Positions 71 to 10,136 of a stretch of DNA of 36,414 nucleotides are shown here, piece by piece; the first letter of the stretch is position 1, and each line of letters opens with the position of its first letter. The position numbers were made by a program, and so were the translations under genes. The notes under the pieces were generated by a model, which was not told the origin of the DNA, did no database searches, and saw only the letters and a list, made by a program, of their open reading frames with translations. Source of the DNA: Terriglobia bacterium (GTDB taxonomy: Bacteria; Acidobacteriota; Terriglobia; UBA7540); the NCBI GenBank assembly GCA_030040315.1, contig JASHTY010000339.1, positions 1 to 36,414 of the forward strand. The letters are read 5' to 3'.

Positions 71-3000
71 CTACCGCGGTGTGGTAGCACGAACTGCCAC
101 CAAGGTGTTGCCTGTAGCGTGAAGCTGCGATTGCAAATTCTGTAATTCGCTGCGTAAAGCCCGAACCTGGTCAAGCCACTGCTTTTGCTGGTCCTCCTGG
201 ACCTTTCTCTCTTCACTTTGTGCCTTGTCAAGCTGTGCCAGGCGCGTGGCCAGATCGCGAATCTCCGCTAGCTGGCGCGTGATGGCGTCCTGCTGATTCG
301 CAATGGTGCTCTGCTGGGCGTCGAGCGCGCGGCGCTGCTTCTGGACTTCGTTCAGTAGCATGGCGTTGACGAAGTGATAGCGCACGGTTTGGGGCAGCCC
401 GTCCTTGTCAAACAGTACGAGTTGCGGCGCGATTTTGGCGACTTCTTCGGCCACCAACCCATATTGGCGCGTCTGGTCTTTGTCCAGCTCCGGCTTGTAG
501 TAAAAGGATACCGGGCGCAGCTTCATCAGCAGTTCGCTTTCCGCGCCCATGTCCGTGATTGCGTGCTTATAGCGGCGCGAAGAGGTGGATGTGCCCAATT
601 TTTGGGAGCTGTCTACGAAGACCTCGACGCCGCTGCTGCTGGTTTCATTATATATGCCGGCAATGTAGGTCGCCGTTTGCGAAGTCCCGAGGCGAATCAC
701 ATCACTTTCGCTGCTCTCGCCGGAATTTCCGATGTAAATGTTGTAGCTGCCGGAGGACAATACATCGCCTGCGTTGGCACCAATCGCGATGTTGTTGCTT
801 CCACTCGTCAGGGCGCAGAGCGCGCAGCCGCCGAAGGCATCGTTCTGCACGCCCGTGGTGTTTTGATAAAGGGCGTCGCCGCCGAAGGCATCGTTACTGA
901 AGCCCGAAGTGTTGGCCTTTAGCGCCTGAAAGCCAAAGGCATCGTTGCCCCCGGAACTTCCATTATCGTTGTTCTGGAGAGCGTTATAGCCGAAGGCGGA
1001 GTTGTTGGCTCCCGTGGTATTGTCCTGGAGGGCAGAGGCACCGAAGGCGGAATTGTAGCTGCCGGTGACGCCGGTAGAACTATTGCCTTGCAACGCTTCA
1101 AAGCCGAACGCAGAGTTATCCGTCCCCGAGTTCTGATACCCCAGGGCGTACGCGCCAAACGCCGAATTGTCGTCGCCCCCCTGCGTCCCGGCGGGATTGC
1201 CAGACATCGCGTTGTTACCGAAGGCGGAATTGTTGTTGCCGGCAGGGATAAGAAACATCGCTGCGAACCCAAAAGCCGAGTTGTTGCTCGAAGTGGTCGA
1301 AGTGTAAAGGGCATCATAGCCAAATGCGGAGTTGCTAGAGCCCGTCGTATTCGCACCGAGGGCGGACACACCGAACGCGGAGTTGTCGCTCGCGTTGCTG
1401 AAGACGTTAGGGTCATTGTTGAATTGCAGGGCGTTGACGCCGAAGGCAGAATTGCCCCAGTTTTGGCTGTTATTCTGGAGAGCGTCCACGCCGAAGGCGG
1501 AATTCAGACTGCCAGTGTTATTGGCATTGAGTGCGCTATACCCGACTGCGGAGTCCGAACCGCCGGTAGTGTTATTATAGAGTGCGTTGATTCCGAATGC
1601 GGAGTTGCTCCCGCCTGTAGTGTTGGACAGAAGGGCGCTCGCACCGAAGGCTGCATTGTTACTGCCGGTAGTGTTGAACCACAGGGCATAGATACCGAAG
1701 GCGTCATTCGCTGAGCCGGTCGTGTTTGCGGCCAGCGCCCCTTGGCCGAATGCGGAGTTGCCACCACCGGTGGTGTTCTGGCCAAGCGTGTTGGCGCCAA
1801 AGGCATCGTTACCTGAGCCGGTCGTGTCTGCGAACAACGCCCCTGCGCCGAATGCGGAGATGCCATTGGCTGTGGTGGCGGAGTAGAGCGCTTGATAGCC
1901 GAAAGCGGAGTTGAGTGCGCCTGTCGTGTTGGAGTAGAGCGCCGTGGAGCCGAAGGCGGAATTGAAGCTTGCGGAGGTATTGGCATAAAGCGCGTTCCAC
2001 CCAAACCCTGAGTTTTGGTAACCCGTCGTGTTGCTTTGCAGCGTGCGGTCTCCAAATGCGTTGTTGTATGAGCCGGTCGTGTTGGCGACAAGCGCCGACC
2101 CGCCGAACGCCTCATTGAGCGTACCCGTGGTGTTGCCCTGCAAGGCTCCCGTACCGAAAGCGTTATTGCAGCAGCCGGTGGTGTTATCCAGCAGTGCGTT
2201 GACGCCGAACGCCGAACTGAAATTGGCCGTGGTGTTGTTATAAAGCGCATTACTGCCGACCGCGGTGTTCTGGGTTCCCGTGGTGTTCGTAAAAAGTGAG
2301 AAGGCGCCGACGGCCGTGTTGGACCCTCCGGTGCTGAACTGAAGGGCGCCACCACCAAAGGCGGAGTTTGCGAAAGACGTCGTGTTGGCTTGGAGCGCAT
2401 TAGCCCCAAAGGCCGCGTTAGATTGTCCGATAGTATTGGATTGGAGCGCGTGATATCCGAAGGCGCTATTAAAGTTGACCGTGTCCGCCTGCAAGGCGCC
2501 GACGCCAAAGGCCGTGAGGCTGCTGCCCGTGGTGTTCGATTGGAGAGCGGCCGTGCCGAAAGCCGCGTTGGACGAACCAGTCATGCTCAAATTCCCCGCC
2601 CCAGCGCCGACGAAGGTGTTCTGAGTGCCATAATTGTGCATGAAGGGTGTACCACCCAGGGAGATCACGCCCACAGTGGACGAGGTCGTATTGGGGAGAC
2701 TCAGCGTGCCGGCCAGAGTCAGGGTACCGTTGGTATCCACCATCATTTTGGGCGTCCCGCCCACGGCCGCACCGATCAATGTTTGCCCCGCGCCCGCTGA
2801 GGCCGGGTCCACGTAAAGCGGCCCCTGGCTGGCGCCGCTCCCAGTGGGCGCAGCGGTGAAAACGTTCTGTCCCGTGAAAGTGTTGGCGGCGCTCAAAACA
2901 CTGATTCCCGTAAGGTTCGTTCCACTGCCCATAAACGTCGTGGCCTGCACATTTCCGACCACGTCGAGCGTCTGCCCGGGGCTGTTCGTGCCGATTCCCA

Positions 3001-5740
3001 CCATCATGGGCTGTGTGCTGTCACCGAGCACAATGCAGTTGGAACAATTGACGAGGGCATTGGCGCCAATCGCCGCCGAGTTGTCCACCTCCGTGGAACC
3101 CGCCGGGCCGGAATTAGCACCGATGAACGTGTCATTCGATCCCGTGACGTTCGCATTCGCCGCAGTCTGAGTGACTCCTGCCTGATATCCGAATGCCGCG
3201 TTGTTCCCGCCCGTGGTGTTTGAGGAAAGTGCACTGGAGCCGACTGCAGTGTTGGTCCCTCCAGAGGTGTCAGCAGAAAGGGCGCTCCAGCCGAGAGCAG
3301 AGTTGTTCTGTCCCGTCAGGGTCAGGTTTCCGGCCGCATTTCCCAGGAAGGCATTATTAATTCCGAAGTTATGGAGGAATGGCGAGCCTCCCATTGTCAG
3401 TGCACCCACTGAGCCCGCCGACGTGTTGGGGAGGGCGAGAATTCCGCTCAGCGTCACGCTTCCGGCGGAGAAATTTCCGAAGGCGTCACGCGAAACCAGC
3501 GTGCTTGCCGTGTTGCCGGCCGTGGCGTTGGTCGAAACCGTTATCGTGCCATTCGCCCCAGACACACTTAGCCCGTTTGCCCCTGCCAGCGTCAGCGCAT
3601 CCGTCTGTCCATTGATTCCTCTCACCACGGCTCCCGCGGCGATATTTGCCGCGGTGATCCCGGCACTGGAGACTGTCACCGTGGGCGCTGAGGCAGTTCC
3701 TCCAATGGTGATGGAACTGTCTCCTGCGCTCACGCTGGTTACTGCTCCGGGAAAAGCCTGCCCGGAAGCGAATGTTAACTGGCCATTGTTGCCAATGGCG
3801 AGGCCCGTCTCCGCGGGAGTGTTGGCTCCCGAGGAAAAGAGCAGGTTAAAGGTGGCTCCTGCCCCTGGGGTGTTGTTTCCCACCGGCTCCGCTTGCCACA
3901 AGAAGTTCTGTGGCACGGGCGTTCCGGTTTCAGGGTTGAATACCGAGGCAGTCCACTGGAGGCCGTTTGAATTGAAGCCGCCGTTGGTCGTGGCCGCCCC
4001 CGTTGCGGGCAATACACTTCCGCCGGACTGAGTGAGCACGCCGCCAAAGCTGCCTGCGCCTGAGAAGATTCCGCTCGTGCCATTCAGGCTTCCGGTAAGC
4101 GTGCCGCCCGCGAGTTGCAGATACCGCGCGTCGGCCTGCGCGGTAGTGCTGTAACTTGCCGCCGCATTGCCGCCCAGCGCCAACGCGTTGGTGGCGGTTG
4201 CCGCCGTTGTTGCGCTGCCCGCGCTGCCGCTGATGTTTCCGTTGATCATGTTGCTGAACGTCGCGTTGCCCGTGAAAGTCTTGTTCCCACCAATGGACTG
4301 GCTGGTGGTCAGGTCCACGAAGTTCTGCGTGTTCGAGCCGGTGCCGCCGTTTGCCACTCCTACGATCCCGCTCAGGGTGATAACCGGACTCTGCCCGCTG
4401 CTGGCGGAAAGCGGTCCCGTGGCCGTGACCCCAAGAACTCCTGAGTTGCTCAGCGTCACGGCGCTCCCTAGAGCCACACTGCCGCCCCCGGCCAGACCCG
4501 TGCCCGCATGGATCGTCAACGAGGGATTGGTGAGTAGCGAATTCCCGATGCCTCCAGCGGTAATGCTGATGTTCGGCGTTGTCGACCCCTCGGAAACCGT
4601 TACGGGCGCGGTGCCGGTCACCTCCGAAACCGAGCCGCCTCCCCCACCGGGAAAGGTCTGCCCGGAGGCAAACGTGATCAGGCCGCTGCTCGCAATCGAA
4701 AGTCCCGTCTCTGACGGCGCGTCGGACCCGGAGAGGAATTGCAGGTTCAGAGTCGCGGAGGGGCTGGCCGTATTGTTATCCCCAGGCTCGGCTATCCAAC
4801 GAAATTGTTGCGGCACCGCCACTCCCGTCCCGCTGTTGAACGATGAAGCAACCAAGTCGATGGGGTTTGAATTGAAGCCCTGCGTGGCGGTGGCCGTGCT
4901 CAGCGCCGGCAACACGATGCCTCCGGCCGTCACTGCCCCGCTGAAAGTCCCAGCGGTCCCGCTCAGCGCAGCCCTGAAGTTTCCGGTGCCGTTCACGTCG
5001 AGAATGGACAGCGGGCTTGTTGTGGCGATCCCCACGTTACCCAGAGGGCTGATGAAGATCGGCGAATTCCCAATCGTCGAGTTGCCGGTGAACATGGCGG
5101 CGAAGTTCAGTGTGCCTGAGCCGGTGATGGCGCCTGCGTTGGACGTGCTCGCCGGCGGCTGAACCGGGTTAGGAGGCGGAAAGGATATTGGTGAGGGAAC
5201 GAGGGGGCTGCTCTCCAGCATCGCCGTGGCGCCGGGCGCGAGCATAAAGGCTGAGGGGGGGAGCCCTCCGAGGGTGTCGGCGTCGGCGGATTTTAACGCA
5301 TAGGGCACTGCCACGAGCAGCACGCGCGGCTGCTCCGCCGCACCCGGCAACTGTGGCTGTACCCCTAGCCACAGCGCTTTGCTACTGGAAAACAAATCCA
5401 GCGGCAAACCGTTCGGGGAATTCGATCCCAGTAGGGCCGTGTAGTGGCCTTGCTCGTCGAGCGCGAGGTTCTGGTTTTCCGTCCACAGCGGGTTGCCGCC
5501 TTCGGGCAGTTCGTAGAGCGAAAACGTGATCCCGATCAGGTTGGTGGGAACCTTACCTGCAAGATCCTTCACCGCCCCTGAGAACTTGATAAAGCGGGGA
5601 ATCGTTCCTGCTGAGGGTTGCGAAGCAGCAGGCGGATTCGAGCCGTTCGAGACACTGGAATCGGACTGCTGTGCCTGTAATCCGCAAGCAAAAAACAGCC
5701 ACCCTGTCACCGCCCAAAGTAATACGGACCCTCGGCGCAT
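71..5740 (-). CDS. Giant secreted repeat protein with C-terminal S74-type chaperone (TMF/tail-fiber family)
   Basis: 1889 residues. An N-terminal signal peptide (about 1-23, ending near LQAQ) predicts export. An Ala/Gly/Ser/Thr-rich beta-type region follows and contains an internal duplication of about 90 residues (roughly 270-370 and 570-670, both with FNSN, AEP.NNT and FASGQ.FPG). Next come about 34 tandem 17-residue units of the pattern xAFGxxALxxNTTGxxN. The C-terminus resembles the S74 intramolecular chaperone: Ser1720 and Lys1725 are five apart, as in the self-cleaving Ser-Lys dyad, followed by YGLVAEEV and a coiled coil of about 80 residues. I infer a trimeric fibrous surface or secreted protein matured by chaperone cleavage. 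No anchor or autotransporter barrel is visible. The ATG at 5738-5740 has an AAAGGG ribosome site 9 bases upstream. The 70 bases beyond the stop are too short to interpret. Ligand unknown. Confidence 0.85.
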   Translation of the reverse strand: MRRGSVLLWAVTGWLFFACGLQAQQSDSSVSNGSNPPAASQPSAGTIPRFIKFSGAVKDLAGKVPTNLIGITFSLYELPEGGNPLWTENQNLALDEQGHYTALLGSNSPNGLPLDLFSSSKALWLGVQPQLPGAAEQPRVLLVAVPYALKSADADTLGGLPPSAFMLAPGATAMLESSPLVPSPISFPPPNPVQPPASTSNAGAITGSGTLNFAAMFTGNSTIGNSPIFISPLGNVGIATTSPLSILDVNGTGNFRAALSGTAGTFSGAVTAGGIVLPALSTATATQGFNSNPIDLVASSFNSGTGVAVPQQFRWIAEPGDNNTASPSATLNLQFLSGSDAPSETGLSIASSGLITFASGQTFPGGGGGSVSEVTGTAPVTVSEGSTTPNISITAGGIGNSLLTNPSLTIHAGTGLAGGGSVALGSAVTLSNSGVLGVTATGPLSASSGQSPVITLSGIVGVANGGTGSNTQNFVDLTTSQSIGGNKTFTGNATFSNMINGNISGSAGSATTAATATNALALGGNAAASYSTTAQADARYLQLAGGTLTGSLNGTSGIFSGAGSFGGVLTQSGGSVLPATGAATTNGGFNSNGLQWTASVFNPETGTPVPQNFLWQAEPVGNNTPGAGATFNLLFSSGANTPAETGLAIGNNGQLTFASGQAFPGAVTSVSAGDSSITIGGTASAPTVTVSSAGITAANIAAGAVVRGINGQTDALTLAGANGLSVSGANGTITVSTNATAGNTASTLVSRDAFGNFSAGSVTLSGILALPNTSAGSVGALTMGGSPFLHNFGINNAFLGNAAGNLTLTGQNNSALGWSALSADTSGGTNTAVGSSALSSNTTGGNNAAFGYQAGVTQTAANANVTGSNDTFIGANSGPAGSTEVDNSAAIGANALVNCSNCIVLGDSTQPMMVGIGTNSPGQTLDVVGNVQATTFMGSGTNLTGISVLSAANTFTGQNVFTAAPTGSGASQGPLYVDPASAGAGQTLIGAAVGGTPKMMVDTNGTLTLAGTLSLPNTTSSTVGVISLGGTPFMHNYGTQNTFVGAGAGNLSMTGSSNAAFGTAALQSNTTGSSLTAFGVGALQADTVNFNSAFGYHALQSNTIGQSNAAFGANALQANTTSFANSAFGGGALQFSTGGSNTAVGAFSLFTNTTGTQNTAVGSNALYNNTTANFSSAFGVNALLDNTTGCCNNAFGTGALQGNTTGTLNEAFGGSALVANTTGSYNNAFGDRTLQSNTTGYQNSGFGWNALYANTSASFNSAFGSTALYSNTTGALNSAFGYQALYSATTANGISAFGAGALFADTTGSGNDAFGANTLGQNTTGGGNSAFGQGALAANTTGSANDAFGIYALWFNTTGSNNAAFGASALLSNTTGGSNSAFGINALYNNTTGGSDSAVGYSALNANNTGSLNSAFGVDALQNNSQNWGNSAFGVNALQFNNDPNVFSNASDNSAFGVSALGANTTGSSNSAFGYDALYTSTTSSNNSAFGFAAMFLIPAGNNNSAFGNNAMSGNPAGTQGGDDNSAFGAYALGYQNSGTDNSAFGFEALQGNSSTGVTGSYNSAFGASALQDNTTGANNSAFGYNALQNNDNGSSGGNDAFGFQALKANTSGFSNDAFGGDALYQNTTGVQNDAFGGCALCALTSGSNNIAIGANAGDVLSSGSYNIYIGNSGESSESDVIRLGTSQTATYIAGIYNETSSSGVEVFVDSSQKLGTSTSSRRYKHAITDMGAESELLMKLRPVSFYYKPELDKDQTRQYGLVAEEVAKIAPQLVLFDKDGLPQTVRYHFVNAMLLNEVQKQRRALDAQQSTIANQQDAITRQLAEIRDLATRLAQLDKAQSEERKVQEDQQKQWLDQVRALRSELQNLQSQLHATGNTLVAVRATTPR
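740..2566 (-). repeat. Tandem 51-bp coding repeats (17-residue AFG/NTTG units)
   Basis: Within the giant secreted protein the reading frame repeats every 51 bases. I count 34 units with a [AT]-[FV]-G-x-x-[AST]-[LM] core, followed by one IAIG unit. Most are exactly 17 residues; a few are 16, 19, 21 or 23. Units differ by many synonymous and non-synonymous changes, so the array is old or under diversifying selection rather than freshly expanded. The repeat resembles the head repeats of trimeric adhesins. Its regular composition also opens long artefactual frames on the other strand. Confidence 0.9.
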
Positions 5741-6012: not shown

Positions 6013-6182
6013 GGTTTTCTCTTCCTTAATGAGTTTCGAGCAAGGACTTTTCTTGTGCCCCGAAGAAATTGTCTATGACTACCCTCGGCATATAAATCGA
6101 ATAGTCCTTGCCCTTTATCACCAATATCGAAATTGAGAGGAAAAAGACGACAGGCTGGGCAAATTCTTGTTCAGACGGAACC

Positions 6183-6276
6183 TTACTGGTAAAACACGCA
6201 GGGGAAATTCCTGCTCGGGGCGACTTGGTTTAACGATTGCCGAAGTAGAAATTAAGCTTTGGGAAGGTTAGGATTC
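6183..6276 (-). pseudogene. Relic of the 3' end of the Ser/Thr kinase gene
   Basis: Read on the minus strand, this stretch aligns without gaps to the last ~31 codons of the kinase at 6738-9551. It keeps the counterparts of LPNAQF, LLRQSL and the final stop codon (TAA at 6183-6185), with many point changes. One Gln codon has become a premature TAA at 6252-6254. Weak similarity may continue to about 6300. It is the leftover of a tandem duplication and should not be translated as part of a kinase. Confidence 0.8.
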
Positions 6277-6357
6277 CTTCCGTTGTTCACTGCTGGGGGC
6301 TACGTTGGAAGTCTTGCTCCCCGATCACCGAGTAATGAGGCGATGTCCGATGCTTTA

Positions 6358-6421: not shown

Positions 6422-6601
6422 TTATCCTTCGTATAGTTTCGGAGATGCGCAGTCTTGACGCATCGTAATGCTAAAGGAGTCGTGGATCGTGCCGCCTTGT
6501 ACCTGTTCCACCGCCGCGTCCGAAAGCTCACCCTCGGCCTGCGGCGTTACCCCTTTCTGGCCCTGAGTTCCGCTAACAATCTTGTCCTTTTCTTCTGCCA
6601 T
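6422..6601 (-). CDS. Small precursor-like peptide with double-glycine leader
   Basis: 59 residues starting MAEEKDK. The ATG at 6599-6601 follows a strong AGGGAGG ribosome site 7 bases upstream; a longer in-frame start at 6637 lacks this support. The segment ELSDAAVEQVQGG fits the double-glycine leader consensus: counting back from Gly37, Leu is -12, Ser -11, Val -7, Val -4 and Gly -2/-1. Cleavage there would release a 22-residue C-terminal product with one Cys and several Ser/Thr. Such leaders are normally cut by C39-peptidase ABC exporters and precede bacteriocins, pheromones or RiPP cores. No exporter or modification enzyme lies in this window. It sits 136 bases downstream of the Ser/Thr kinase in the same orientation, so co-transcription is likely. 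The function of the product is unknown. Confidence 0.65.
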   Translation of the reverse strand: MAEEKDKIVSGTQGQKGVTPQAEGELSDAAVEQVQGGTIHDSFSITMRQDCASPKLYEG

Positions 6602-6737
6602 GGTTTTTCCTCCCTGATTTGATTCGAACAAGGGCATTTCTCTTGTCCCGAGGTTAATTAGTCTTTGCCCCTTATCATCAATATCGAAATCAGGGGGAAA
6701 AAAACGACAGGCTGGGAGAATTTTCTTAGACGAGGCA

Positions 6738-9551
6738 TTACCGGCGGAGCACGCCGGGGAGATTTGCGCTCGGGGTGACCTGGATTAACGATTGGCGGAG
6801 CAGAAATTGAGCATTGGGAAGCTTGGCATTCCAATGGTTCCAAAGCTCTGCCCGCTGGGCCTCCAGGCGCTCGGCATCATCGGCTTGCCCATTTCGGCGC
6901 TGCAGGAGGGCTAAGGCGGTCCAGGTGCGAGACATACAGGTGGCATCGCGAAGGTCGTTTTGCGGATCGGGCTTCCAGGCCATCAGCTTGGCCAGCAGTT
7001 CCTGATAAGCGGCAATCGCCTTGGGGGTTTGGCCGGTTTCAGCGTCCTCATCTGCCTGGGCTCTTAAAGCATAATCGGGCGCGCTCATGGGCTCGACGGC
7101 GTCGGCCGGGTATTGGTGAGCGTCCCGCAGCAACTGAAACGCCTGCTCGATGCGCTGATGACCGTCTTTGACTTGCCCAGTCCACCTTGCAGAGTAAGAA
7201 GACCCCGCCAGCAATTCGGCCGCGTAGATCTGAGCGCTGACATTAGGTTTCACTTCCCGAATCCGAGCAAGGGCCTGATCGTAGACGGCCAGGGCTTTCC
7301 AGGGGTCGCTGAGACGTAGAATATTGCCGATTTCCACTGCTTGCACGGCCACCGTGCGGCGGCTGAGATAATCGAGGGGGTCGATTCTTGCGAGCTCCTC
7401 ACCGATATTGATTCCCCTTTGGAGAGCGGCAAGCGCTTCACGGCTTCGACCGAGGCTAGGTTCCCCGTCCTGCTTCCCAAGTATCATGCCTTCTGTGTAC
7501 AAGGCGTTGGCCAGATTGACTCGCATGGAGGCGTGGCCGCCGGCAGCTTGCGCCTCTTCGAGTTCGACCGATTTTTGAGCCGTCTGTAGCGCTCTATCAA
7601 GATCTCCCGTCTGCCATTGCGCAATCTCTAATGCCCCGAGAATGCTGCCTTCCGTTCGATGAGCGGAGGCATTGGGTTGCATGATTTCCAGAGCGCGCTG
7701 GCCAGCGCGGACAGCCTTCCCAAATTGTCTCGAATCGTCGTAACAATTGGCCACGTTAAGTTCAAAGTACGTCATCGCGTAGATATCGTGAGGGTCAATC
7801 CTGTCGAGATGCATATAGCGCTCAATCCGCTCCGAGGCTTTATCGGCCCAAACCGCCTCATCCTCCCGGCGATTTCGCTCATTGGCGATGGTCATGTGAT
7901 CATGCGCAATCGTCGTTGCGAGCAGCCATCCCCTCACGTTTGTGGGATCAACTTTCAAGACCGACTGGACGAAGCCCTCCGCCTTGCCGAGACTTACTTC
8001 CGCCTCCGCGAACTGGCCAAGGTTGGGCGATGTAGGATTACCTTGCGCGTGTGCCACCCGCACATAGGCCAAGGCAACATCGAGCGCCAGATCCTTATCG
8101 CCATGAACGTCACTGCCCAGCGAAGTGAGATATTGCAGTGAATCGGTCACCATTTGCATCCGGACGTTCGTGGAACCCGGCAGGCCGCGGATCCTTTCAT
8201 CGAGCGCTATAAATTTATTGGCCAGTTGCCGCACCTGCTCAAATCGCCGTTCGGCAACTTTGCGCTCACGGTTGGCAATCAGCAATCCGGCGGATAGGCT
8301 TCCGATCACCACGGCCAGGGCGGCGGCAGTCAAGGCCACGCCGGTGCGATTGCGGCGCAAGAACTTGGCGGTGCGATAGGCAAGGGTATCCGGCCGGGCG
8401 CTGATGGTCTCATGGGCCAAATGGCGGCGAATATCATCCGCGAACGCCGCCGCCGAGTTGTAGCGCTCCAACGGATTCTTCTTCAGCGCCTTGGTGGTAA
8501 TCGTGTCCAGGTCGCCGCGCAACAACCGGCGCAGTTTGTCGGGAGAGGTCGAGCGGTTGGCGGCAGCCTTGCCGAGAGGTTCCGCTTGCTCCCCCTCCTC
8601 AGCCATGACGCGCGAAGGGCTCTGAGTTTCGGTCTCCACAATCGCCTTGATCAAGTCCGCGGGCGAGAGTGTTTGGGTGCCGGCCGGGTGCTGCCCGGTC
8701 AGAAGCAGGTACAGTAGGACACCGGCCGCATAGACATCGGTGGCGACGGTGACCGGCCCGCCGGTAACTTGCTCCGGTGCGGCATACTGCGGCGTCAAGG
8801 CGGCTCCGCCTTCGCGGGTAAGCTGCGTCGCAGCTCCCGTTGCGTGCTCATCCTCAAGCAATTTGGCGATACCAAAGTCCAGCAGCTTCACCTGCCCATC
8901 GGCCCGCACAAAGACGTTCGATGGCTTGATGTCGCGGTGTACGATCAGGTTGGCATGCGCATGCGCGACCGCCGAGAGCGCGTCCAGGAAGAGTCGAAGT
9001 CGCCCTTCCACGTCCAGCCGCCGTTCGTCGCAGTAAGCAACAATGTCCTGGCCATCGACGTATTCGAGAATCAGGAAAGGTTGGCCGCTCGGGGAGACTC
9101 CGGCGTCGAGCAGTTGGGCGATATGGGGGTGGGCAAGGCGGGCGAGGATGGTGCCCTCGCGTTTGAAACGCTCGCCGCCGGTGCGGCCAAGAAGCGGCAC
9201 GTGAAGGACTTTGACGGCGGCGCGGCCTTTGAACCGCCCGTCGCTTCGCTCCGCCAACCAAACGCTTCCCATCCCTCCTTCACCAATCAGCGATACCAAC
9301 GTGTAAGCGCCAATCGATTTCCCAGCCATCGTCACTTCTTCGGGCAAAACAGGTGCAGGCCCCCTTTCCAGGAATTGTTCTTGCGACAGCACCTGGTGCT
9401 CAGACAGCAGGCTTTCAAGGTGAGAAGCCATGGCGGGATCTTGCGCGCGGAGGTTCGCCAGCCAATTGGCGCGCTCCTCCTCTTCCATTCCCAGGGCCTC
9501 GTCCAAGTATGGGCTGACCTTTTGCCACCATTCCTGGCTATGAGTTGACAC
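6738..9551 (-). CDS. Membrane-anchored PknB-like serine/threonine protein kinase with TPR-like C-terminus
   Basis: 937 residues. The kinase domain covers about 84-380, with a glycine loop GEGGMG at 90-95, ATP-binding Lys114, catalytic HRD with Asp207, DFG with Asp225, and APE at 258-260, so all catalytic residues are present. A single membrane helix lies at about 403-426. The remaining ~500 residues are helical, TPR-like repeats typical of acidobacterial and planctomycete kinases, probably a protein-binding sensor region. The first ~75 residues form a helical extension. Translation starts at GTG 9549-9551 behind a GAGG site, six bases after the sigma factor stop, so the two genes form one operon. 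It probably phosphorylates proteins in response to an envelope signal and may act on the sigma factor; the target is not visible in the sequence. Confidence 0.92.
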   Translation of the reverse strand: MSTHSQEWWQKVSPYLDEALGMEEEERANWLANLRAQDPAMASHLESLLSEHQVLSQEQFLERGPAPVLPEEVTMAGKSIGAYTLVSLIGEGGMGSVWLAERSDGRFKGRAAVKVLHVPLLGRTGGERFKREGTILARLAHPHIAQLLDAGVSPSGQPFLILEYVDGQDIVAYCDERRLDVEGRLRLFLDALSAVAHAHANLIVHRDIKPSNVFVRADGQVKLLDFGIAKLLEDEHATGAATQLTREGGAALTPQYAAPEQVTGGPVTVATDVYAAGVLLYLLLTGQHPAGTQTLSPADLIKAIVETETQSPSRVMAEEGEQAEPLGKAAANRSTSPDKLRRLLRGDLDTITTKALKKNPLERYNSAAAFADDIRRHLAHETISARPDTLAYRTAKFLRRNRTGVALTAAALAVVIGSLSAGLLIANRERKVAERRFEQVRQLANKFIALDERIRGLPGSTNVRMQMVTDSLQYLTSLGSDVHGDKDLALDVALAYVRVAHAQGNPTSPNLGQFAEAEVSLGKAEGFVQSVLKVDPTNVRGWLLATTIAHDHMTIANERNRREDEAVWADKASERIERYMHLDRIDPHDIYAMTYFELNVANCYDDSRQFGKAVRAGQRALEIMQPNASAHRTEGSILGALEIAQWQTGDLDRALQTAQKSVELEEAQAAGGHASMRVNLANALYTEGMILGKQDGEPSLGRSREALAALQRGINIGEELARIDPLDYLSRRTVAVQAVEIGNILRLSDPWKALAVYDQALARIREVKPNVSAQIYAAELLAGSSYSARWTGQVKDGHQRIEQAFQLLRDAHQYPADAVEPMSAPDYALRAQADEDAETGQTPKAIAAYQELLAKLMAWKPDPQNDLRDATCMSRTWTALALLQRRNGQADDAERLEAQRAELWNHWNAKLPNAQFLLRQSLIQVTPSANLPGVLRR

Positions 9552-9557
9552 TTGGCC

Positions 9558-10136
9558 TCACAGTAATGCCGGCACGCGAAGCTTCCGGTGAAGATAAATG
9601 CGCGCTTTGTCCCACTTTCGCTGCACTGTGCGCTCCGATACGCCCCGCATCGCCGCAATTTCCGCAAAGGAGAAACCGCAGAAGAACTTCAGATCTACAA
9701 CCTCCGCGAGGGAAGGATCGACCTGGGCCATTTCGTCCAGCGCCTCGCTGATGGGGGCTAGTTCCCGATCGTCGGCAAGTCCCTTCCCTGGGTCGGTTCC
9801 GATTCGCGTGATCTCAAATTGCCCGCCCCGCTTCACGGCGCAATGTCGCCGCGCATGATCAATGATAAGGCCGCGCATCACCCGCGCCGCATACCCCATG
9901 AACCGAGCGCGGTCGGGAAACGTTGGGCCAGTGCGCGCTGCCATATTCAGATACGCCTCGTGGAGGAGGGTTGTAACACCCAAGCTTGCGGGCGCACCAT
10001 GCCGCGCTAGTTCTTGCTTGGCAAGCCGGTGCAGCTCAGCATAGAGTGCCGCGAACAGGGCTTCTCCGGCGCCTGCGTCACCGCGCTCAACGGCAGCGAT
10101 GAGCACCGATAGCGTCGCCTCTGCGTTTTCTGCCAT
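9558..10136 (-). CDS. ECF-type RNA polymerase sigma factor, kinase-associated (TIGR02999-like)
   Basis: 192 residues. Region sigma-2 spans about 25-98 (including LLHEAYLNMA and RARFMGYAARVMR). Region sigma-4 spans about 130-185, with a helix-turn-helix at 155-176 (FAEIAAMRGVSERTVQRKW). The sequence fits the ECF branch that lacks a classical anti-sigma factor and is found next to Ser/Thr kinases. No anti-sigma gene is visible, and the kinase follows after six bases. I infer that kinase signalling controls this sigma factor. Its regulon could include the peptide and the giant exported protein downstream, but no promoter evidence shows this. The ATG is at 10134-10136. Confidence 0.9.
   Translation of the reverse strand: MAENAEATLSVLIAAVERGDAGAGEALFAALYAELHRLAKQELARHGAPASLGVTTLLHEAYLNMAARTGPTFPDRARFMGYAARVMRGLIIDHARRHCAVKRGGQFEITRIGTDPGKGLADDRELAPISEALDEMAQVDPSLAEVVDLKFFCGFSFAEIAAMRGVSERTVQRKWDKARIYLHRKLRVPALL

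Follow-up and report, generated by a model that had tools for sequence, protein, structure and literature searches.

A double-glycine leader of the export type joined to part of Hcp, the type VI tube protein, in an uncultured Terriglobia genus

Hcp is the ring and tube protein of type VI secretion. Among exported peptides, precursors of the NHLP/Nif11 kind are known for hypervariable cores and for lying at a distance from their exporter (PMC2887384). Here we describe a 59-residue precursor gene in a Terriglobia bacterium (GenBank assembly GCA_030040315.1, contig JASHTY010000339.1, positions 1 to 36,414; this whole stretch of 36,414 nucleotides is the window below), in which a double-glycine leader of the export type is followed by a segment of Hcp, an anatomy that, judged from sequence, is repeated across a family of precursors. 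Literature searches for Hcp or type VI secretion in combination with double-glycine leaders, C39 or NHLP returned no description of such peptides.

The precursor and the Hcp segment in its core

A search with a profile built on the window gene's homologues brought up Hcps from other families of the class, which the profile matched through the core alone. This likeness had gone unnoticed in an earlier note on the locus, made from the window sequence, which suggested a signalling or antimicrobial peptide; now that the core is recognised as part of Hcp, a generic peptide of that sort is not the best reading. The nearest Hcp, a 166-aa protein (L075) from genome G298 in another family of the class, matches the core through its residues 54-73, where 18 of 20 positions are identical (VHDPFSITMRQDCASPKLYE against IHDSFSITMRQDCASPKLYE; shuffle z 21), and alignment of the core with Hcp by hhalign gave a probability of 97.5% and an E value of 7.7e-12. 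At the DNA level the core and the G298 hcp gene are identical at 41 of 60 positions, and the third codon position agrees in 5 of the 18 shared residues. With DNA identity this low and synonymous sites at chance, the core is no recent copy of the G298 gene; the similarity is evidently kept at the protein level, the protein sequence having been either retained or re-acquired. The homologue in genome G008 scores above the Pfam T6SS_HCP cut-off and the window peptide below it, and one of the sister cores gives a weak match to a type VI protein of solved structure (PDB 4hkh). The core runs for 22 residues to a stop, with no Hcp continuation downstream in that frame, and a family-profile search found no full-length leader-Hcp fusion in 299 genomes of the class. 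A phage tube protein was also considered as the origin of the core and dropped, as there were no matches.

The 59-residue frame, its leader residues and its own strong ribosome site, all pointed out in the earlier note, were borne out by the sequence (Table 1), and comparable purine-rich sites precede the homologues. A 71-aa frame on the program-made list begins further upstream; the conserved start is the ATG of the shorter frame. This is the sole frame in the window that fits the double-glycine leader pattern with its length limits, and dinucleotide shuffles of the window gave a mean of 0.13 matches, with at least one match in 8 of 60 shuffles. Because the pattern arises in some shuffled windows, it is not decisive alone and conservation is needed. 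No match was obtained for the window in Rfam, for its core in a plasmid search, for the whole peptide in a phage search (nor is there a PHROG family for it) or for the peptide in NCBIfam, where a relative reaches TIGR03793 at 12.6 bits (cut-off 50.9).

Table 1. Positions of the precursor gene, its parts and neighbouring features in the window.
Feature	Position	Strand	Details
Precursor gene	6422..6601	(-)	59 aa + stop; frame 6425-6601, ATG at 6601, stop reaching 6422; leader MAEEKDKIVSGTQGQKGVTPQAEGELSDAAVEQVQGG, core TIHDSFSITMRQDCASPKLYEG
Double-glycine leader, residues 1-37	6491..6601	(-)	L-12, S-11, V-7, V-4, G-2, G-1
Core, residues 38-59	6425..6490	(-)	Hcp strand and helix start
Shine-Dalgarno AGGGAGG	6609..6615	(-)	7 nt before ATG
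Second tandem copy, 57 aa	5839..6012	(-)	Leader kept to ELSDAALE, without GG; core QFEAYRNLIHQLRSRALVSAPSAKH
Diverged direct repeat	6173..6277	.	Repeats 6728-6832 (kinase 3' end)
Further repeat pairs	6102-6165/6659-6722; 5991-6026/6580-6615		Mark tandem duplication
Ser/Thr protein kinase, 937 aa	6738..9551	(-)	PF00069; C-terminal TPR-like region
ECF sigma factor, 192 aa	9558..10136	(-)	TIGR02999/PF07638; 6 nt before kinase

A conserved leader and a family of Hcp-bearing cores

All genomes that bear the peptide are fragmented metagenome-assembled genomes (MAGs) of one uncultured Terriglobia genus, with completeness of 73% for the genome of the window (G000), 80% for G003 and 58% for G005. Homologues of the window gene occur in four other members of the genus, G003 (two copies), G005, G006 and G008, and share 28 invariant columns, nearly all within the leader. 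The stretch MAEEK...ELSDxAVExVxGG is kept in five genomes of the genus and GG in all six homologues with an Hcp core; the GG position, on whose conservation in related genomes the earlier note had staked its proposal, is conserved across these five genomes. A scan of named genomes returned five loci in four Terriglobia MAGs (JOPF series), which to all appearances are the same contigs as those of the genus set and not additional ones, and outside the genus a search of 299 genomes of the class yielded no homologue with a leader.

Pooled over the six Hcp-core homologues, the ratio of nonsynonymous to synonymous differences (pN/pS) is 0.38 for the leader, 0.58 for the core and 0.49 for the whole gene, values that, with the conserved leader, point to the protein-level selection expected in the earlier note and to a precursor conserved and shaped as a protein. 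At synonymous sites the leader is less diverged than the flanking genes (synonymous divergence, dS, of 0.21 between G000 and G008, against 0.73 for the kinase) and the core more diverged, to saturation in the G000-G008 and G000-G003a comparisons, although these figures rest on few sites and are indicative only. A leader less diverged and a core more diverged than their surroundings suggest an exchange of cores behind a leader held in common. The pieces might instead be non-functional debris left where leader genes were repeatedly joined to hcp fragments, as G003:C397, which joins a GG-less leader directly to an Hcp piece without a good start, the GG-less second copy in the window and the shortened core in G006 could suggest; what makes this improbable is that the frames are intact in five genomes, with ribosome sites and canonical leaders, that the whole-gene pN/pS is about 0.5 and that residues are kept despite synonymous saturation.

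In addition to the window gene, at least 11 other precursors in these genomes bear pieces of Hcp, drawn from several of its regions and subtypes; double-glycine peptides were located through profile searches, and the set in the genome is probably incomplete. The pieces come from the Hcp N-terminus (G006:C20, GLPLDGIQGESLDVSHKDWIEIP, z 14.6), from a loop and strand (G000:C430, G003:C729 and G008:C682, with a leader ending in AG), from the strand and helix represented by the window group, and from the C-terminal strand (G000:C244 and G008:C682). The loop/strand core matches Hcps of Rhizobium and Sinorhizobium at borderline E values (~0.8-1); all 44 matched records are from these two genera, and 9 of the 10 listed are annotated as Hcp. 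Searches of solved structures with the loop/strand core and the C-terminal core gave no match. The tandem copies of G003 read TITMRQD and TIMKRTD and the G008 homologue TITKYVD, each resembling a different Hcp subtype. In a comparison with 25 Hcps (11 from outside the genus, 14 from within it), 11 of 12 cores gave their higher scores with the outside set and the remaining core tied; some margins are small.

Such peptides could be NHLM-exported double-glycine peptides of the ordinary kind, with an antimicrobial or signalling role and cores that vary through recombination; Hcp would then be handy beta-strand material, with no type VI action. Their leaders fit the NHLP/bacteriocin logo, the hypervariable cores and the distance from the exporter are familiar from NHLP/Nif11 (PMC2887384), and several sister cores are not Hcp-like; compared with VgrG, PAAR, DUF6931 and the C39-like protein, the non-Hcp cores gave nothing convincing. 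We consider this explanation possible but rather unlikely, given that a dozen cores come from one protein family in genomes with few such genes each, and that amino acids are near-identical while synonymous sites are at chance level.

Other peptide and Hcp-like genes were seen in the surveyed genomes. An array of double-glycine peptides with another leader type (MAGNxLTIxLTDEQQ...) is followed in G000:C392 (L173, 1-3710) by a radical SAM C-methyltransferase (TIGR03975) of the kind acting on ribosomally synthesized and post-translationally modified peptides (RiPPs). G077:C21 (L123, 1183-1917) encodes a 245-residue Hcp-like protein with a signal-like N-terminus, apparently concatenating loop variants of several Hcp subtypes, and G356:C48 (L133, 6514-6648, (+)), from another family, encodes a 45-residue protein without a double-glycine leader that ends in an Hcp loop/strand piece, GAGAGKVTFNSFSIQHK (shuffle z 7.2).

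Exporter and genomic neighbourhoods

Contig C128 of G000 encodes a C39 peptidase ABC exporter (TIGR03796, 1087 bits; cut-off 853) with its partner (TIGR03797, 942 bits; cut-off 709), a pair of the NHLM type, and the exporter cluster of G008 adds an HlyD-like TIGR03794 protein (over cut-off) and a TolC-like protein. The earlier note had seen no exporter near the gene and advised a check of the genome for a C39 exporter; none lies at the locus, and the objection of a missing exporter falls with the pair on C128. Leader and exporter together are those of a double-glycine, C39-exported precursor, as that note had proposed, for which cleavage and export are predicted. By inspection of the frames of at least 150 aa in the window, no maturation enzyme was recognised beside the precursor. 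Among 39 genomes of the family the NHLM exporter exceeds its cut-off in five (G000, G005, G006, G008 and G062), and the leader profile matches these five and G003, an overlap whose chance probability would be ~1e-5 for independent genomes; these genomes are not independent. The G006:C20 precursor, which bears an Hcp piece, starts with a second leader type, KKDELSDKDLEKASGG, that is also found next to the exporter in G005 and G008. G062, one of the exporter-bearing genomes, has two precursors resembling canonical long-leader NHLP peptides (L160, G062:C142, 1723-2620, (-)).

Two paralogous loci of G000, in the window and on C430, encode a sigma factor and kinase with double-glycine-type peptides directly downstream of each, and the same holds for the syntenic G005 orthologue of the window locus; in all three the peptide lies ~137-156 nt downstream of the kinase. 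The extracytoplasmic function (ECF) sigma factor and Ser/Thr kinase recognised in the earlier note were confirmed, both on the strand of the peptide gene, and the control of the peptide proposed there gains partial support from this linkage. The linkage does not extend to G003 and G008, where the orthologous window-type kinases have no peptide alongside, or to G006 and G008, where the same is true of the C430-type kinases; the peptides of these genomes lie elsewhere. The link is a local arrangement and not a conserved one, and a joint signalling unit in which the sigma/kinase operon governs the peptide and acts as its partner seems very improbable.

In G003, G006 and G008 the homologue of the window peptide follows VgrG, a small protein, DUF6931, PAAR and a C39-like peptidase, an order complete only in G003, as the contigs of G006 and G008 begin inside the peptidase; the G003 peptidase is over the cut-offs of both PF03412 and PF13529. 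Moreover, the Hcp N-terminal precursor of G006 lies just upstream of a vgrG, and TssC/VipB is encoded by all genus members with a window-type peptide, which thus possess type VI secretion genes themselves. These arrangements may be due to peptides that serve the producers' own type VI system, either as its cargo or as accessory pieces; the stand-alone peptidase would mature them and the tube or spike would carry them. This use is conceivable but doubtful: the peptides of G000 and G005 lie elsewhere, and no stand-alone peptidase was found in those assemblies, 73% and 58% complete; no double-glycine peptide was seen within ~1.5 kb of the stand-alone peptidases of G004, G016 and G022; and the cores show no special match to the producers' own Hcps. 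The stand-alone C39-like peptidase of G003 (L034, G003:C562, 3532-4620), which adjoins VgrG, DUF6931 and PAAR, has zinc-ribbon-like cysteines, a charged, coiled-coil-like C-terminal stretch and, by eye, conserved Q, C, H and D; such a peptidase is also present in G004, G016 and G022.

The window also holds a second copy of the gene, unnoticed in the earlier note, in a diverged tandem duplication of ~555 nt. A second copy is present in G005 too (12399). The core of the GG-less copy in the window may tentatively be taken as the Hcp segment following that of the first copy (joint shuffle p 0.0035). Beyond this copy, at 71-5740 (-), a 1889-aa protein has a signal-like N-terminal stretch, many NTxGxxNxAFGxxAL repeats and a C-terminal S74 (chaperone of endosialidase) domain, and resembles phage tail spike and virion structural families; a protein of this type likewise lies downstream of the peptide genes in G005.

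Possible action on type VI tubes and comparison with known systems

We tentatively favor, short of thinking it probable, a reading in which the gene is a precursor of an undescribed family whose Hcp segments are exported from behind a double-glycine leader and act on type VI tubes. By the likeliest route, the C39 domain of the NHLM exporter would recognise the leader and cleave it after GG, whereupon the exporter would release and export the 22-residue segment. The released segments may then bind Hcp subunits or tubes, mostly of the subtypes of other bacteria, and interfere with these tubes as a decoy or assembly poison; binding and interference are the least certain steps. Interference with tubes fits best because Hcp recurs among the cores and its subtypes are spread. 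A wider form of the same idea, an exported repertoire that copies segments and subtypes of other bacteria's Hcp to block or decoy their tubes and so forms a soluble, evolvable defence against type VI secretion, is more speculative and on balance unlikely.

Several points weigh against an action on foreign tubes. Tubes assemble in the cytoplasm of the rival, where an exported peptide would have to arrive. The resemblance to foreign subtypes was drawn from a set of 25 Hcps and from incomplete MAGs, and 6 of the 11 outside Hcps were themselves retrieved by searching with these peptides. Shared descent confounds the co-occurrence of exporter and leader, and leaders occur in G003, where no exporter was found in an 80% complete genome. 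Some double-glycine peptides in the same genomes are without an Hcp-like core, and recurrent recombination with hcp genes that serves no function keeps a small residual probability.

If the cores act on Hcp, two weapon systems thought to be separate, exported peptides and contact-dependent injection, become linked, and peptide interference with Hcp tubes could be tested with the cores as sequences already at hand. If the cores have no such action, they would still show that a single structural protein can supply the fragments from which bacteriocin-type cores are assembled.

Of the known systems, NHLP/Nif11 precursors with the NHLM exporter (TIGR03793/TIGR03798 with TIGR03794, TIGR03796 and TIGR03797) share with the window gene the leader end ELSDxxVExVxGG, a variable core, an exporter of exactly that type in the genome and precursors scattered away from it. 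The window leader differs in its 37 residues, which include no nitrile-hydratase or Nif11 domain, and the core behind it comes from Hcp. Class II bacteriocin and lantibiotic-type precursors (TIGR01847-like) likewise have a short leader and a GG processing motif, whereas the window core comes from a known structural protein, and no immunity gene or maturase was recognised next to its gene. Type VI effectors fused to Hcp, VgrG or PAAR (polymorphic toxins, PMC3482391) re-use type VI structural modules in a similar manner, and the sisters have a stand-alone C39-like peptidase beside VgrG/PAAR; the window peptide has no toxin domain or full Hcp domain. Finally, Hcp/TssD itself (PF05638, TIGR03344) contains one segment that the 22-residue core matches almost exactly, but the window gene carries this segment behind an export leader and not within a 160-residue tube subunit.

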